The position numbers and the translations under genes are program-made. Shown one piece after another: positions 20,576-51,460 of a DNA stretch of 51,832 bases. Positions within the stretch are counted from its first letter, which is position 1; the number at the start of each line of letters is the position of its first letter. The notes beneath the pieces are model-generated. The model was not told the origin of the DNA. It made no database searches and saw nothing but the letters and a program-made list of their open reading frames with translations. This stretch comes from Desulfuromonas sp. Lineage in GTDB: Bacteria > Desulfobacterota > Desulfuromonadia > Desulfuromonadales > Geopsychrobacteraceae. The stretch spans positions 1-51,832 of the forward strand of contig PKUD01000036.1 in NCBI GenBank assembly GCA_002869695.1. The letters are read 5' to 3'.

Positions 20576-21220
20576 CTACAGCTCTTTGAGTCTGGCCAGC
20601 GTCTCTTCCGGCTCCGGACGGGTTGTGTGATCGGGATGAAAATCGCAGTCGCGCAAAATACCGTGTCGGTCGATGAGGGCCCGGCCTGGGAGGGCCAGTT
20701 GCCAGCTGTTGTCATTGTTGAAGCGTTCCAGATCAATACCGAAGCTCAGATAGATTTCCCGCAGTTTCGGGTCCAGGGTGAAGACCAGGCCGAATTGTTG
20801 GGCTATCTGGTTGCCGGGATCGCAGAGCAGCGGAAACTCCAGACCGAGCTTTTTGACCAGCTGCTGAGAATACTTCTGCTGCATCGGCGAGATGGCCAGC
20901 ATTTCTGCTCCTGTCTCCCTGATTTGCGGAAGGAGGTTTTGCAGAGCTTCCAGCTCCGCATTGCAGTACGGTCACCAGATGCCCCGGTAGAACGTCAGCA
21001 GCAAAGGGCCTTTTTTGCGCAGCTCGCGCGAGTCGAAAGTGTTGCCGGCAGCATCCTGCAGCGAAAAATCAGGAGCGCGTGTCCCCGGCGAAAGAGTTTT
21101 TTCAAGAATTTCCGAGGTTGAGAGCAGGGCCGTAGCCTGCTGCATTATGGCCAGTCTCTCGGCAGGTGCGCTGGCAACGAATTCCTGTTTGATATTGTCA
21201 AGAGTCTGTTGCAGTCCCAT
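20576..21220 (-). CDS. Peroxiredoxin-like selenoprotein (AhpC/TSA family, UxxC), in-frame TGA
   Basis: Two frames that would usually be split join across one in-frame TGA at 20972-20974: 82 residues before it and 131 after it, all in the same phase. The join reads LLLTFYRGIW-U-PYCNAELEAL, where homologues have FYRGxWCPYCN. The TGA thus replaces the redox-active first Cys (Sec83), leaving Cys86 as partner. A stem-loop with the bacterial SECIS features follows (separate entry). The protein belongs to the thioredoxin-fold peroxiredoxin-like group and should reduce peroxides with thiol or thioredoxin support. No signal peptide, so cytoplasmic. AAAGGACATCGCT precedes the ATG. UxxC members of this family are known in Deltaproteobacteria. 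Sec synthesis genes are outside the window. Confidence 0.9.
20940..20960 (-). promoter_or_regulatory. Bacterial SECIS-like stem-loop of the peroxiredoxin-like gene
   Basis: In the mRNA, UGCGGAGC and AGCUCUGCA flank the loop UGGAA, giving an 8-bp stem with one G-U pair. The loop starts 19 bases after the TGA and has G at its second position. Both fit the accepted bacterial SECIS rules (loop about 16-37 bases after UGA, a G among the first two loop bases). It lies inside coding sequence, as bacterial SECIS elements do. Confidence 0.7.
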
Positions 21221-21331: not shown

Positions 21332-21422
21332 TGTTTACCAATTCCGGCAGGCAATGCCCACGCGGCAAACCATCAGATTTTTTAGGCAGCCTGCCGAGAA
21401 CAATCGCCAGAAAGGAACTATC

Positions 21423-21890
21423 ATGGCTCGCTTATTCTCCATACCGCTTCTGGCCATCGGTCTGTGCCTGTTGCTGGTCGCTCTGCCGGTTGCCGCAGAT
21501 CCCCTTACGTCATCCCGGGTAGCTGTCTTCATGTCCCCTGGTTGAGGGTGCTGTGGTGGCTGGGTCGATCATCTGGAAAAGCTTGGCTTTAGCGTCGAGA
21601 CAAGGAAAGTTGATAATATTTCGGCGATTAAAGACCGGCACGCAGTTCCAGATGATCTTCGATCCTGCCATACTGCCATCGTTGATGGCTATGTGATTGA
21701 AGGGCATGTCCCCGGGGCCGAGATTATCCGCCTGCTGCAACAGAGACCGGATATTGCCGGATTGAGTGTGCCGGGTATGCCGGCCGGTTCGCCGGGTATG
21801 GAGATGGAAAACGGAAAAACCACCCCTTACCAGGTGATTGCTTTCGACCGTGAGGGGCGGGTGTGGCCCGTCGCTCGATATCCGCAGTAA
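21423..21890 (+). CDS. DUF411 secreted metal-binding protein, probable selenoprotein (UGCC), in-frame TGA
   Basis: 155 residues if the TGA at 21543-21545 is read as selenocysteine. AAGGAAC precedes the ATG at 21423. A signal peptide (about 1-25, ending PVAA) is followed by VAVFMSPG-U-GCCGGWVDHLEKLGF. The DUF411 family normally reads CGCC at this spot, so Sec41 replaces the first metal- or redox-active Cys. After the TGA all family hallmarks remain in frame: LRSCHTAIVDGYVIEGHVPG, AGLSVPGMPAGSPGME and PYQVIAFD. There is no other stop or frameshift before TAA at 21890. DUF411 proteins are linked to copper or other metal handling in the periplasm. A nonsense mutation is the alternative, but the position, intact downstream frame and neighbouring Sec gene argue against it. 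Confidence 0.8.
21553..21572 (+). promoter_or_regulatory. Possible SECIS-like hairpin of the DUF411 gene
   Basis: After the TGA, GUGGUGGC can pair with GUC-G-AUCAU across the loop UGG (21561-21563), giving about eight pairs with one bulged G and several G-U pairs. The loop starts 15 bases after the TGA and has G at positions 2-3. This fits SECIS geometry loosely and is weaker than the neighbour's hairpin. Confidence 0.4.
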
Positions 21891-28158: not shown

Positions 28159-28560
28159 ATGCAAAAGACTCTGTCCGCGGGAGATCCTGTTGAGGCCCGT
28201 TGCACCAAATGTCGTAAAATCACCAACCATATCGTTATCGCCATGGCTGAAACGGTCCCGGCCAAGGTTGAATGCAATGTTTGCAGTGGTCAGCACAAGT
28301 ACCGTCCGCCAGCGGCAGCAAAAAAACCGGCCGTGCGGCGGACCGTAAGCCAGAAGACCTCAGCTAAGCAGGAGTGGGAAGCTCTGCGCCCGAAGATGGA
28401 CAGCGACAAGGCGAAAGACTATTCCATGGAAGGGTCTTACAAGGTCAATTCACTGGTCAACCACCCGCTTTTTGGACTCGGAGTGGTTCAGCGGAATGTC
28501 GGTTCGCAAAAGATGGAGGTGCTCTTTGAGATCGGGTTAAAAACGATGCGCTGCAAGTAA
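28159..28560 (+). CDS. Zinc-ribbon protein with C-terminal SH3-like module, unknown function
   Basis: 133 residues. The N-terminus holds a four-Cys zinc ribbon, CTKC (15-18) and CNVC (39-42). A basic Pro/Ala/Lys linker follows, and the C-terminal VNHPLFGLGVVQRNVGSQKMEVLFEIGLKTMRC resembles the CarD/Tudor-like module found in related delta-proteobacterial proteins; VNHPLFGLGVV is the conserved block. It may bind nucleic acid or RNA polymerase; this is inference. AAGGGAGAAAATGA precedes the ATG. It and the next gene (78-base gap) are both small zinc-ribbon proteins. Confidence 0.82.
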   Translation: MQKTLSAGDPVEARCTKCRKITNHIVIAMAETVPAKVECNVCSGQHKYRPPAAAKKPAVRRTVSQKTSAKQEWEALRPKMDSDKAKDYSMEGSYKVNSLVNHPLFGLGVVQRNVGSQKMEVLFEIGLKTMRCK

Positions 28561-28638
28561 CGTTACCGCGGTTACCGGCAGACCTGTCTTGAGCTGAAAG
28601 GCAGGAAAAGAAAGCGTTGCCCCGATGGAGAGAAACTA

Positions 28639-28854
28639 ATGGCGATTTGTAAACTTTGTGAAGCCCAGGCAAAAAGAAAAAATGGGGGGAAGCCCCATGA
28701 CGACCTGACAGAAATGGGGACTCCGCGTGTTTTTAGTGGCGTTCCCCCGCGGGGGTTTACCGAGCAGGATTACCAATGTCTCGTCTGCCAGGCCAAATTT
28801 ACCCAGAGTACGAATAGAAACGATCTGGCCTGGACTCTGTGGGAGGCCAGCTGA
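28639..28854 (+). CDS. Small zinc-ribbon protein, 71 residues
   Basis: Two CxxC pairs, CKLC (4-7) and CLVC (47-50), form a zinc site. Between them is a charged stretch with KRKNGGKPHDDLTEMGTPR. The last part, FTQSTNRNDLAWTLWEA, is helical. I do not recognise a function; small ribbon proteins of this type often bind nucleic acid. GGAGAGAAACTA precedes the ATG. It follows the larger zinc-ribbon gene on the same strand. Confidence 0.75.
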   Translation: MAICKLCEAQAKRKNGGKPHDDLTEMGTPRVFSGVPPRGFTEQDYQCLVCQAKFTQSTNRNDLAWTLWEAS

Positions 28855-28997
28855 CTTTTTTCCGACCGGCGCTTGAGGAGAAAAGGGCTCGGTTTCATCC
28901 GTGGAATGCGGCCGGAGGTGAATTCTTATTTTTTTATAGGTGTTTAGCCCTTGCTTTTAAAAAGAATTCCGTGTACGTTATTAAGACTTAAGCAAGT

Positions 28998-29026
28998 TTG
29001 TGTACGTTTCCGCCACCATTCATAAT
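28998..29026 (+). promoter_or_regulatory. Sigma-70 promoter of the cold-shock gene
   Basis: TTGTGT (28998-29003) and CATAAT (29021-29026) are spaced by 17 bases. Transcription would begin near 29033, giving a leader of about 108 bases, in line with the long leaders of cold-shock genes. Confidence 0.5.
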
Positions 29027-29047
29027 GACAAGGTGTCAATATGAATT

Positions 29048-29080
29048 AAACACGCAGACCTATATAGGGTGCGTGTTTTT
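29048..29080 (+). terminator. Terminator-like hairpin inside the cold-shock gene leader
   Basis: AAACACGCA and TGCGTGTTT pair perfectly around an inner CCTATATAGG self-pairing, followed by TTTTTTATTTT. It is a convincing intrinsic terminator, but it lies about 15 bases after the predicted cold-shock promoter start and 62 bases before the start codon. It either ends transcripts from the zinc-ribbon gene upstream or attenuates the cold-shock gene. Confidence 0.7.
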
Positions 29081-29141
29081 TATTTTCGGTGACAGGACAT
29101 GACACAACAAAAAGTTTCCGCAGGGGAACATGGAGAAGAAA

Positions 29142-29342
29142 ATGGTAGAAGGTACAGTAAAATGGTTTAACGACTCAAAAGGATTTGGTTTTATCGAGCA
29201 GGACAATGGACCGGACGTGTTTGTTCATTTCTCCGCAATTGAAGGCGATGGATTCAAGTCCCTTGCTGAGGGTGACCGGGTAAGCTTTGAGGTGACCGAG
29301 GGCCAAAAAGGACCTCAATCAGCCAATGTGCGCAGAATTTAA
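29142..29342 (+). CDS. Cold-shock protein (CspA family)
   Basis: 66 residues from the ATG at 29142 with GGAG six bases upstream; an earlier ATG at 29130 with AGGGG would add MEKK. The single OB fold is textbook: [17 protein letters not shown] (RNP1), DVFVHFSAI (RNP2). It binds single-stranded nucleic acid and melts RNA structure at low temperature. It is followed by a strong terminator, so it is expressed alone. Confidence 0.95.
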
Positions 29343-29364
29343 CTAAGGTTTTGCATATATTTGC

Positions 29365-29399
29365 AAAAAGAGCCCCACGGATTCCGTGGGGCTCTTTTT
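29365..29399 (+). terminator. Strong intrinsic terminator after the cold-shock gene
   Basis: AAAAAGAGCCCCACGG and CCGTGGGGCTCTTTTT pair perfectly over 16 bp with a 3-base loop. It carries T-runs on both strands, so it could also act on minus-strand transcripts. Confidence 0.92.
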
Positions 29400-29472
29400 G
29401 CTGAGACACTCACAAAGGCGGAATATTCCGGGCCTGAATTCGGGCCGGACTCCTGCCGGGAAGGATTCCCCG

Positions 29473-29598
29473 ATGGCCAGAAAACCGAACTACGGCTTTG
29501 AGAAGCGGCAAAAGGAACTCGCCAAGAAGGCCAAAAAGGATGAAAAGAACAGGCGCAAACAGCAGGAAAAGGAACAGGGCACTGACGAAGAGGAGTAA
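29473..29598 (+). CDS. Small Lys/Glu-rich conserved protein, 41 residues
   Basis: The start is the ATG at 29473, with GGAAGGA 8 bases upstream; an earlier frame start lies inside the terminator hairpin and is rejected. The protein begins MARKPNYGFEKRQKELAKK and is almost entirely charged helix. Similar tiny proteins with this N-terminus occur widely in Gram-negative bacteria with unknown role. It may bind nucleic acid or a ribosome; nothing in the sequence decides it. Confidence 0.72.
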   Translation: MARKPNYGFEKRQKELAKKAKKDEKNRRKQQEKEQGTDEEE

Positions 29599-29643
29599 CT
29601 CACCTGCTTGCCGTTCCTTCCCCGCCTTTGCCAGAGGCTCTCT

Positions 29644-30461: not shown

Positions 30462-31535
30462 CTAACTTCTCTGCTCTATCTCCCGCAGGGCCACGATCCC
30501 CTCGTAGAGGCATCGGCAGATTTCTTCTTCGGTAATCTGGAGTCGGCCACTGGGGGAAAGGTCCACTAGCCCTCCTGCACCTGCTTCCGTATGCTCTCCT
30601 CCCGCACCGCGAACCGAGAGTCCCAGCGTCTTGGTTAACTGTTTCAAGCCCTCCAGCGTCGTTCCGTTTTTGGTCAGTTTCGGGAGCTCCAGGTGCAGGC
30701 TGGCTCGCATGCCAGTGCCCAGATTGGTCGGACAACTGGTCACATAACCGTAGGTGGCAGAGCGGGCGAAAACCAGCCCCTGTCGCTCAATCGCATCGAG
30801 ACTGATCCGCAAACGAGCGAAGATATCATTGAGCAGGGCACCACGTTTCATTGTCATGATGCGCAGATGATCCTCCTCGCCGACCCAGACGATGAGCTGG
30901 CCATCTGTGGATTCGTACATGCCCCTTCCATAGGGCCAGTCGGAACTGATGCCCGCCGCCGACAGGTAAGGGTCGGCGCTCATATCCTTGAACATCTTGT
31001 GTTCATCGACCAGTTGCTGATACTGCTCTTCTGAAATCTGGTAGGGAGAGTCGGGGGTCAGTGAGAGGTAGCGGCCACCGAAATCCGGGGAGTCGACCAG
31101 TCCGGAAAACACTCCGACCATCCGCTTCTCAAAAGCCAGTCGATCTTTTTTGCTCATGGCCCCGGGTAGAGGGAAGTCGGCCAGGTTCCGTCCGACCCGA
31201 ACCCGCATCGAACTGTTGGCCAGAACGGGATCAATATTGCGGAGGTCGAACCGCTCATCCGAACCCCAATCCGAAACCTGCTTCAATTCACCCTTGATGT
31301 TGTGGTAGTCGCGAATCATCTTGTCCAGGTAGGGCTGGAACAGGTCGTAATCCTCTGGGTGCATGGCATATGCGCCCATGATGCTGTCGGGGTTTTCGAT
31401 GCCGGTTAGGATGATCTGCTGAAGGCGTTTTTGCTGGGCAGGGCTGAGAGAGGCAAAATAGGCCGGATCGAAATGTCTGGCCATGAGATTGTCGTGATGG
31501 CATTGGCGAATCTTGCAGATTTGCTCCGTGAGCAT
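30462..31535 (-). CDS. Full-length phosphagen (arginine-type guanidino) kinase
   Basis: 357 residues with both domains of an ATP:guanido phosphotransferase, unlike McsB protein-arginine kinases, which lack the N-terminal substrate domain. The N-terminal part includes NPDSIMGAYAMHPEDYDLFQPYLDKMIRDYH, equivalent to the guanidino-specificity loop, and short as in arginine kinases. The C-terminal catalytic part has SSMRVRVGRNL, WVGEEDHLRIMTMKRG (catalytic Glu pair) and CPTNLGTGMRASLHLELPKL (reactive Cys and phosphagen signature). It should reversibly phosphorylate arginine or a similar guanidine with ATP, an energy-buffer reaction rare in bacteria. AGGAGGAGA precedes the ATG. The gene follows a 26-codon ORF with a TAA-ATG junction. 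Confidence 0.9.
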   Translation of the reverse strand: MLTEQICKIRQCHHDNLMARHFDPAYFASLSPAQQKRLQQIILTGIENPDSIMGAYAMHPEDYDLFQPYLDKMIRDYHNIKGELKQVSDWGSDERFDLRNIDPVLANSSMRVRVGRNLADFPLPGAMSKKDRLAFEKRMVGVFSGLVDSPDFGGRYLSLTPDSPYQISEEQYQQLVDEHKMFKDMSADPYLSAAGISSDWPYGRGMYESTDGQLIVWVGEEDHLRIMTMKRGALLNDIFARLRISLDAIERQGLVFARSATYGYVTSCPTNLGTGMRASLHLELPKLTKNGTTLEGLKQLTKTLGLSVRGAGGEHTEAGAGGLVDLSPSGRLQITEEEICRCLYEGIVALREIEQRS

Positions 31536-49303: not shown

Positions 49304-51325
49304 TCAGTTACAGACATCGCTGTGATCATACAACACAGTGTCGACAAACTCACTGACGCAGTTCGGGTCGCACGGTGAGCAGAGGCCACGCTCGGGGCGC
49401 TCGAAGCTGTGGCAGAAACCACAACCGATACCGGAGCCCTTCTGCAGGTGGCCGTGCATCCGGCCCTGGTCGCGGGGCAGTTTTTTGTCGCTGTGGCACT
49501 GGTTACAGACGTCAGCTTTCGGCCCTTTGAGTTTGTAGCCGAGAAGGTCCAGTTCACTGTCGCTGTCGACGCTGAAGCTGTTGTGGCACTGCGCGCAGTC
49601 GATGGTTGCCGCCTGGGGAGCGCCATGGTTGAGTAGCCCGTAGGTTTCGGTGGTGATCAGTTCCCAGGGCTCATTGGACGGATATCCCATGTTGACCAGA
49701 CCGGAGGCGACTGCGGTGTCAAGGTCACCGGAGACCTTGAGGAAGTCAAAGGTGTCCACGGAAATAATCACATCGTCAGCGATGGTCTTCGGCTGGTAAG
49801 CGGTCTTGTACTTGAAGGGATACAGCTTGCCATCATTGATGTCACCGTTCGGCCGTGAGGTCGGATAGGTTCCGGTGGCCGGATCGAGGACTGCCGTTTC
49901 GCCGAGCAGGCCGTTGTGGCTGGTACGGTTCCAGAACTTGAGCACCGGCTTCAGGTCGGAGGCCAGTTCAGAGTAGGGGTGGCCGGGGCCGGAGACGCCG
50001 TCAGCCGGCGCACCGTCATGATGGAATTCCCAGTCACGATGAACTTCGGTGGGCCACTTGCCGTACAGGTCGATATGGCAGGCCTGGCAGGAGACCCGGT
50101 TGACGTGACGGTCAGCGTCGGTACGGTTCAGGCCGGCGTCGGTGTGGCCGGTGCCACTGTCCATGCCGGTGTGGCAGGTGGTGCAGGCAACTTCAGAAGC
50201 GTAGTCAGTGGCCCGCAGGTCGGAGCCTTTTCCGGTGACCTTGTGGTTAACGAAGGTATGGCATTCGAAGCAGCTAACATTGGCGCCTGCGTTGTTCATA
50301 TGCACGTCGAAGTCGGGGTCGGTGTTGGTGATGTCGGCCATGGACAGATCGCCACGCTTGACGCCGTCGCCGCCGCCGGCATTGGCGTGGCACTTCAGGC
50401 AGTTTTTGCGCGCGGGCTTGCCGATTGTCCGCACATATGACTCGAGGGTCGCCTGGTCGGTGCCGACCGGTGCGCCCATGGAACCATCAGCAAGGCGGGT
50501 CCTGACCAGCGGGTAGTCGGTGGTACTGTGGCACATCAGGCAGTCGATATTGCTGTTGTCAGCCTGGGAATCATCCGGACGCAGACCGCGACCCACGTGG
50601 CAGGTGCCGCAGACCGGCCAGTCACCGAGAATGTTGATGCAGTAACTGTTGAGAGCGTTGGTCAGTTTGCCCTGCTGGGTGCCGGGCTGATTCGTCATGT
50701 CGGGAGCTTCGCCAACCCAGGTGTAATGCAGGGCACCAGCCATCTCGTTGAACTGAGCGTTGTGACAGCTCATGCAGTTTGCCGGATACTCTTCGTAGAG
50801 CAGGGCGTTGTGCGGATCGGTGCAGGCCGGGTCGCCGCTGCACTCGCTGTCGGCGCAGTCGGTGGCGCCGTCGCAATCGTCGTCATTGTTGTCAGAACAA
50901 TTGACTTCGGAGGAAGCGGTCGTGGTGCAGGTGCTGCAGCCTTCGTCTGTCTGGCCGTCACAGTTATCGTCGATACCGTTGTCACAAACCTCGGCAACGC
51001 CGGGGTTAACCTCAGAGAGAGTGTCGTCGCAATCTTCCTGCGCAAAGGTGCAGGACGCGTCAGCTGGGAAGCCATAGCCGTCACTGTCGTTATCGACGCA
51101 GGTGACGGGCTCACATCCTTCGTCAATGACCCCGTCGCAGTTGTTGTCGACATCGTCACAGACTTCAGTCGCACCTGGATTGATAGCGGCATCACTGTCA
51201 TTACAATCCTTGTTGCTGGTGTAGCCGTCTTTGTCGCCATCGACCGGCTTGCCGGCAAAAGCCGTTGCGCTGCTGAGTGTCAGCACCAGAAACAGGATGC
51301 TGATGATTGCCAGAAACTTCTTCAT
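49304..51325 (-). CDS. Secreted decaheme c-type cytochrome with MopE-like Ca/metal repeats
   Basis: 673 residues from the ATG at 51325, AAGGAGG upstream. A signal peptide ends near TAFA (about 24). Two MopE-type repeats follow: DKDGYTSNKDCNDSD-x-INPGATEVCDD and DNNCDGVIDEGC, then a second copy and a third, degenerate one (to about 168). Such DxDxDG/Cys repeats bind Ca or other metals and occur on secreted proteins. From residue 184 onward there are ten CxxCH heme sites: CMSCH, CGTCH, CLMCH, CLKCH, CFECH, CTTCH, CQACH, CAQCH, CNQCH and CGFCH. It should carry electrons outside the inner membrane, probably at the cell surface in metal or electrode respiration. A sigma-54 promoter lies upstream. 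Confidence 0.93.
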   Translation of the reverse strand: MKKFLAIISILFLVLTLSSATAFAGKPVDGDKDGYTSNKDCNDSDAAINPGATEVCDDVDNNCDGVIDEGCEPVTCVDNDSDGYGFPADASCTFAQEDCDDTLSEVNPGVAEVCDNGIDDNCDGQTDEGCSTCTTTASSEVNCSDNNDDDCDGATDCADSECSGDPACTDPHNALLYEEYPANCMSCHNAQFNEMAGALHYTWVGEAPDMTNQPGTQQGKLTNALNSYCINILGDWPVCGTCHVGRGLRPDDSQADNSNIDCLMCHSTTDYPLVRTRLADGSMGAPVGTDQATLESYVRTIGKPARKNCLKCHANAGGGDGVKRGDLSMADITNTDPDFDVHMNNAGANVSCFECHTFVNHKVTGKGSDLRATDYASEVACTTCHTGMDSGTGHTDAGLNRTDADRHVNRVSCQACHIDLYGKWPTEVHRDWEFHHDGAPADGVSGPGHPYSELASDLKPVLKFWNRTSHNGLLGETAVLDPATGTYPTSRPNGDINDGKLYPFKYKTAYQPKTIADDVIISVDTFDFLKVSGDLDTAVASGLVNMGYPSNEPWELITTETYGLLNHGAPQAATIDCAQCHNSFSVDSDSELDLLGYKLKGPKADVCNQCHSDKKLPRDQGRMHGHLQKGSGIGCGFCHSFERPERGLCSPCDPNCVSEFVDTVLYDHSDVCN

Positions 51326-51460
51326 TGCGTGCTTCCTCCTTGGCATCGTTGAGGGGCCTTCATGGTCCCGTTAAAAAAATGGTTCTATCTGGGGTGTGCA
51401 TAAGAAACGCTGAGCAGGCCTCAGCAAGAAGTAACGTTTTGTTTCGTCCGCTTGTTCTTG

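Follow-up and report, generated by a model that had tools for sequence, protein, structure and literature searches.

A probable selenocysteine form of the copper protein CopG (DUF411) in Desulfuromonas, with relatives in at least four phyla

An in-frame TGA in a DUF411 gene

The stretch of Desulfuromonas sp. DNA analyzed here (51,832 nucleotides, referred to as the window) carries a DUF411 gene with a TGA within its reading frame, which raises the question whether this TGA is a stop codon or a codon for selenocysteine (Sec, U), and what a Sec residue would do in such a protein. Translation with TGA read as U showed only one internal TGA, at codon 41 in the context PGUGCC, and the gene is intact 3' of this codon, with no further stops up to the terminal TAA (Table 1). 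Residues 79-126 match the Pfam domain DUF411 (PF04214; E 8.5e-27, 93.1 bits compared to a cut-off of 27). A first-pass annotation had described a good ribosome-binding site in front of this DUF411 gene, a single TGA at the first Cys of the CxCC motif and an otherwise intact frame, and this description is borne out by the translation, the Pfam match and the AAAGGA element in front of the ATG. The second and third Cys of the motif are intact and the motif reads UxCC. Because the first Cys codon is TGA, the encoded protein appears from its sequence to be a Sec variant of the CopG/DUF411 family rather than a standard CxCC member. The N-terminus (MARLFSIPLLAIGLCLLLVALPVAA) resembles a signal peptide when inspected by eye, and residues 7-19 form a helix with low pLDDT in an AlphaFold2 model of the protein.

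Table 1. Positions of the Sec-CopG gene, its motifs and the neighboring selenoprotein gene in the window.
Feature	Position	Strand	Details	Basis
AhpC/TSA (peroxiredoxin-like) selenoprotein gene	20576..21220	-	TGA 20972-20974 in IWUPYC	Pfam match, translation
SECIS-like hairpin downstream of the AhpC/TSA gene TGA	20940..20960	-	9 bp, GGA loop	RNA folding
Probable ribosome-binding site	21411..21416	+	AAAGGA, 6 nt 5' of ATG	read from sequence
Sec-CopG (DUF411) gene	21423..21890	+	155 residues and TAA stop (21888-21890)	
Signal-peptide-like N-terminal segment	21423..21497	+	residues 1-25	by eye
In-frame TGA (U41)	21543..21545	+	first position of CxCC	translation, homologue alignment
C43 and C44	21549..21554	+	remainder of UGCC motif	invariant in 35 aligned Sec/Cys homologues
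Candidate SECIS	21560..21576	+	CTGGGT[CGATC]ATCTGG, 6 bp, several G-U pairs	weak, no excess over codons
C82-H83	21666..21671	+	invariant	alignment of 35 homologues
M119-x6-M126	21777..21800	+	conserved Met pair; copper-binding in CopG	alignment; motif defined in PMC8456105

Relation of DUF411 to CopG

The first-pass annotation can be refined in that the role of DUF411 is known, the family being the copper protein CopG. The window protein matches the CopG structures 6wis and 6wje at sequence level (E 6e-33), and its AlphaFold2 model (pLDDT 89.5) superimposes on 6wje_C with Z 21.2 and an rmsd of 1.4 over 124 residues (44% identity), whereas the next thioredoxin-fold structure scored far lower (Z 6.4). 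CopG is a periplasmic copper protein with a thioredoxin fold. In the model the thioredoxin fold is followed by a C-terminal extension, and U41 is located immediately before helix 45-53, with U41..C44 reading as UxxC. Across 35 Sec and Cys homologues C43, C44, W47, C82, H83, H95, M119, and M126 are invariant.

CopG is described as using its CxCC motif and two Met residues to bind a cluster of four coppers (PMC7558416, PMC8456105). The corresponding motifs in CutG of Rhodobacter capsulatus are C40xC42C43 and M120x6M127 (PMC8456105), and the equivalents in the window protein are U41xC43C44 and M119x6M126. Because U41 aligns with the first Cys of the CxCC motif of CopG, Sec would occupy the position of a copper-motif Cys, and the copper role of the window protein is predicted by this homology. 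In Rhodobacter CutG, substitutions in the Cys or Met motifs barely affected the accompanying multicopper oxidase (PMC8456105), and because of this small effect the link between motif function and copper tolerance in Rhodobacter is not a firm one. The window protein has the whole-domain fold, the spacing of CxCC, the conserved Trp and the M-x6-M pair in common with CutG and with CopG of Pseudomonas aeruginosa (6wis, 6wje), and its signal-peptide-like N-terminus would fit export as in these proteins, but it carries Sec in place of the first Cys and its gene stands alone rather than among copper genes. Selenoproteins with a thioredoxin fold and a UxxC motif (Trx, Grx, and Prx-like) likewise have Sec at the first UxxC position, in front of a helix; the window protein differs from these in its UxCC motif, in the C-terminal extension with Met ligands, and in having, by homology, a predicted metal site rather than being a known dithiol enzyme.

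Distribution of Sec and Cys forms

The DUF411 gene was found in 12 of 136 genomes of the window's order, and all 12 copies have TGA at the same codon (50-57% identity). These close relatives keep TGA instead of a Cys codon and show no decay. When 84,980 species genomes were scanned for the pattern PGUGCC-x-GW, 51 stretches were obtained, 24 of which are DUF411 genes according to a profile search; the remainder, about half of the matches, lacked DUF411 and was rejected as chance. The 24 genes originate from Desulfuromonadales, an Acidobacteriota MAG, a Syntrophobacter MAG, a Dehalococcoidia MAG, a MAG labelled Gemmatimonadetes, and many MAGs of Acidimicrobiia and other actinobacteria. Searches per order and phylum added further Acidimicrobiia Sec genes and 15 more from Acidobacteriota, which mostly read PT-UGCC (one UPCC); the PG-U-GCC pattern by itself misses the PT-U-GCC forms of this phylum. 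Four weak phylum matches with a partial domain (E ~1e-4, 17-19 bits, far under full homologues) were excluded.

The distinct Sec forms (n = 57) belong to Desulfuromonadia, Acidobacteriota, Acidimicrobiia, one Syntrophobacter and one Dehalococcoidia, representing at least four phyla. When these 57 sequences were compared with 68 Cys sequences, TGA was always found in the column of the first Cys. Most homologues carry Cys at this position; among 398 sampled genomes of Pseudomonadota the protein is present in 193, with Cys in every copy retrieved. TGA recurs in independent assemblies, including that of Deltaproteobacteria bacterium IMCC39146 (a record title without MAG label), which answers the concern that the codon might be a misread TGC or TGT. 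The sequence 3' of the TGA is under purifying selection, with dN/dS values of 0.04-0.34 in 13 of 14 pairs of relatives; the two sequences of the remaining pair are almost identical and therefore uninformative. With 12 of 12 order homologues sharing the TGA and low dN/dS in these pairs, the earlier judgement that a chance nonsense mutation is unlikely holds.

On a tree of 124 sequences, made with the motif residue masked and based on 127 columns only, with many forks unresolved, Sec and Cys forms interleave and the state changes at least eight times. One Cys gene is nested among the Acidimicrobiia Sec genes and another among those of Acidobacteriota. A Cys CopG encoded on a plasmid of Paracoccus marcusii (L115, 4001-4363) falls on a long branch among the desulfuromonad Sec forms, which may reflect a transfer accompanied by a Sec-to-Cys change. 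The Sec-CopG gene of the Gemmatimonadetes-labelled MAG (L055) groups within the Acidimicrobiia genes and represents either a mis-binned contig or a transfer. Two Sec-CopG genes (L043 and L056) lie about 2.5 kb apart on contig CAMYMH010000057 of one acidimicrobial MAG, a case of local selenoprotein gene duplication.

Hairpins downstream of the TGA

Hairpins downstream of the TGA were evaluated against independent codon shuffles that preserve the protein. Hairpins were in excess over the synonymous expectation in the Sec genes of Acidobacteriota (z 8.3 for the best stem), and the Sec genes of Acidimicrobiia carry a fixed hairpin, GTGGGT[CGGGT]ACCTRC, starting from the 15th nucleotide past the TGA (z 6.7), both z values being inflated by relatedness. 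The same shuffles gave no hairpin excess in Cys genes of Acidobacteriota and Pseudomonadota, and the contrast between Sec and Cys genes within one phylum goes beyond an effect of relatedness. The codons of the Acidimicrobiia hairpin are frozen: Val is encoded by GTC in 24 of 24 cases, and CTA accounts for 9 of 25 Leu codons at this position compared to 5% over these genes. Synonymous constraint peaks at these codons (p 2e-4 against other conserved columns) and is gone in Cys genes. Energy-based hairpin tests were weak and the codon-level test was clearer. The register of the hairpin differs between phyla, and RNAalifold on all Sec genes returned almost nothing, with no single consensus hairpin.

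The search for a SECIS element proposed in the first-pass annotation therefore had a divided outcome: a SECIS hairpin is present in the Acidobacteriota and Acidimicrobiia relatives, but the clade of the window shows no excess (z 0.3 in codon shuffles). The 48 nt after the TGA of the window gene fold worse than shuffles. The candidate hairpin in the window (Table 1) has the same register as the stronger one in Acidimicrobiia.

Selenocysteine machinery

The presence of selA, selB, selC and selD had been named as a check on the Sec assignment. In the genome of the window (219 contigs, 96.8% complete) selA, selB, and selD are located side by side on contig 196, with an in-frame TGA in SelD itself, and a tRNA-Sec (anticodon tca) adjoins yedF on contig 182. 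A tRNA-Sec with a good score was detected in about 41 of 52 genomes with a Sec form, the window's own included; at a score of at least 56 bits, and apart from the window's genome, positives numbered 20 of 23 genomes in one set and 20 of 28 in a second set of additional Sec-form genomes. Genomes without a match cluster in small actinobacterial MAGs, and the missed tRNA-Sec genes are probably due to incomplete assemblies. Two weak tRNA-Sec candidates in one such MAG were rejected as tRNA-Ser. Within Acidobacteriota the Sec form is not discriminated by tRNA-Sec, which is present in 13 of 16 Sec genomes and 20 of 26 Cys genomes, because most of the phylum decodes Sec.

Gene neighborhood

The second Sec gene that had been reported next to the DUF411 gene is an AhpC/TSA gene with the motif IWUPYC (Table 1). 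It is divergent from Sec-CopG and the two genes have a promoter region in common. Copper genes adjoining Sec-CopG were not found in the window and are absent at most sampled Sec loci, and no conserved gene neighborhood was found across the Sec loci. In Ilumatobacter (L045) the Sec gene is closely preceded by a gene for a Cu-type P-type ATPase, and the interval between the two holds no further large ORF; in an Acidimicrobiaceae genome (L083) a CopC-CopD gene adjoins the Sec gene. One Cys homologue is part of a sil operon. Support for a copper role from neighboring genes is modest.

Elsewhere in the window, positions 30462-31535 (-) encode an ATP:guanido phosphotransferase of the arginine or creatine kinase family, which is full-length with both N and C domains and is uncommon in bacteria. 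The gene at 49304-51346 (-) encodes a multiheme cytochrome c that carries putative metal-binding (copper) motifs of the MopE type. About 1 kb (28560-29608) contains no ORF of 80 residues and no Rfam match.

Discussion

We consider it likely that the window gene encodes a Sec form of CopG, an exported copper protein with Sec in its copper/redox site. The assignment of the TGA as a Sec codon is nearly certain. The conserved TGA, the Sec machinery, the selection after the TGA, the homology and fold of CopG and the intact ligand positions are observed, whereas we infer that Sec is actually inserted in this protein, that the protein is exported and binds copper, and in which direction its redox chemistry runs. 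SelB and tRNA-Sec would decode codon 41 (TGA) as Sec, giving a UxCC metal/redox motif. Outside the cytoplasm, the selenolate would most likely replace the thiolate of the first Cys in a proposed copper site formed by U41, C43, C44, M119, and M126, and the function of this site could be copper binding, redox exchange of the Cu(I)/Cu(II) or Cu-thiol type, or a combination of binding and exchange. A more specific reading is put forward tentatively and has somewhat less than an even chance of being correct: Sec would itself coordinate the multinuclear CopG copper cluster in a natural copper-selenium site, tuning both copper affinity and redox potential, with repeated gains and losses of Sec across at least four phyla.

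A TGA normally stops translation, and together with the missing SECIS excess in the window's clade this could be taken to indicate a nonsense mutation or sequencing error in a pseudogene. Independent genomes from several phyla, however, share this TGA, the sequence downstream of it is under purifying selection, no other stops are present and the genome has the Sec machinery. From the recurrent TGA and the low dN/dS after it, a pseudogene or sequencing error is therefore excluded for practical purposes. Reading of the TGA as Cys or Trp, via suppression or sulfur-charged Sec machinery, would fit the Cys found in most homologues, but is highly improbable: other genes of these genomes, DUF411 homologues among them, end in TGA, tRNA-Sec is present, and TGA has been kept over long divergence without reverting to TGC or TGT.

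The main rival accepts a genuine selenoprotein but assigns it to thiol-disulfide or peroxide chemistry, with U41-x-x-C44 as an ordinary UxxC oxidoreductase motif, or to the handling of a soft metal or metalloid other than copper (Ag, Hg, As). The modelled place of U41 just before helix 45-53 would be the usual position of a nucleophile, the divergent neighbor is a Sec AhpC/TSA protein, copper genes are missing beside Sec-CopG in the window, and the sil operon contains a Cys homologue. On the other hand, all copper ligands of CopG are invariant in the Sec forms, including M119 and M126, a Met pair that plain thioredoxin-like oxidoreductases do not need, and some Sec copies are flanked by copper genes. 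We regard this explanation as rather unlikely and rank copper redox or binding by the Sec form of CopG as the most likely role.

Sec-CopG appears to be a selenoprotein family missing from the current list of 119 (PMC13188914). Neither DUF411 nor CopG is included in that review of May 2026 or in the deep-Sep list, and NCBIfam has no model matching the Sec-CopG protein. No literature joining DUF411 (or COG3019) with selenoproteins was found in a search with preprints and subscription papers outside its scope, and among the matches listed for CopG and selenoprotein only human or animal cells were concerned; the earlier impression that DUF411 is not among the listed selenoprotein families holds in the literature searched. 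Copper-linked Sec is also predicted in the SO_0444 family Cu/Zn efflux transporter and in CopZ-type (2Fe-2S) proteins (PMC13188914), which are protein families other than DUF411.

The DUF411 label is now tied to the structurally known CopG. Sec-CopG is widespread, and annotation pipelines will cut the gene at the TGA. Sec and Cys forms within one phylum are natural pairs for studying what Sec does beyond Cys, and a copper site that contains selenium would connect the physiology of the two elements in anaerobes and in soil bacteria.
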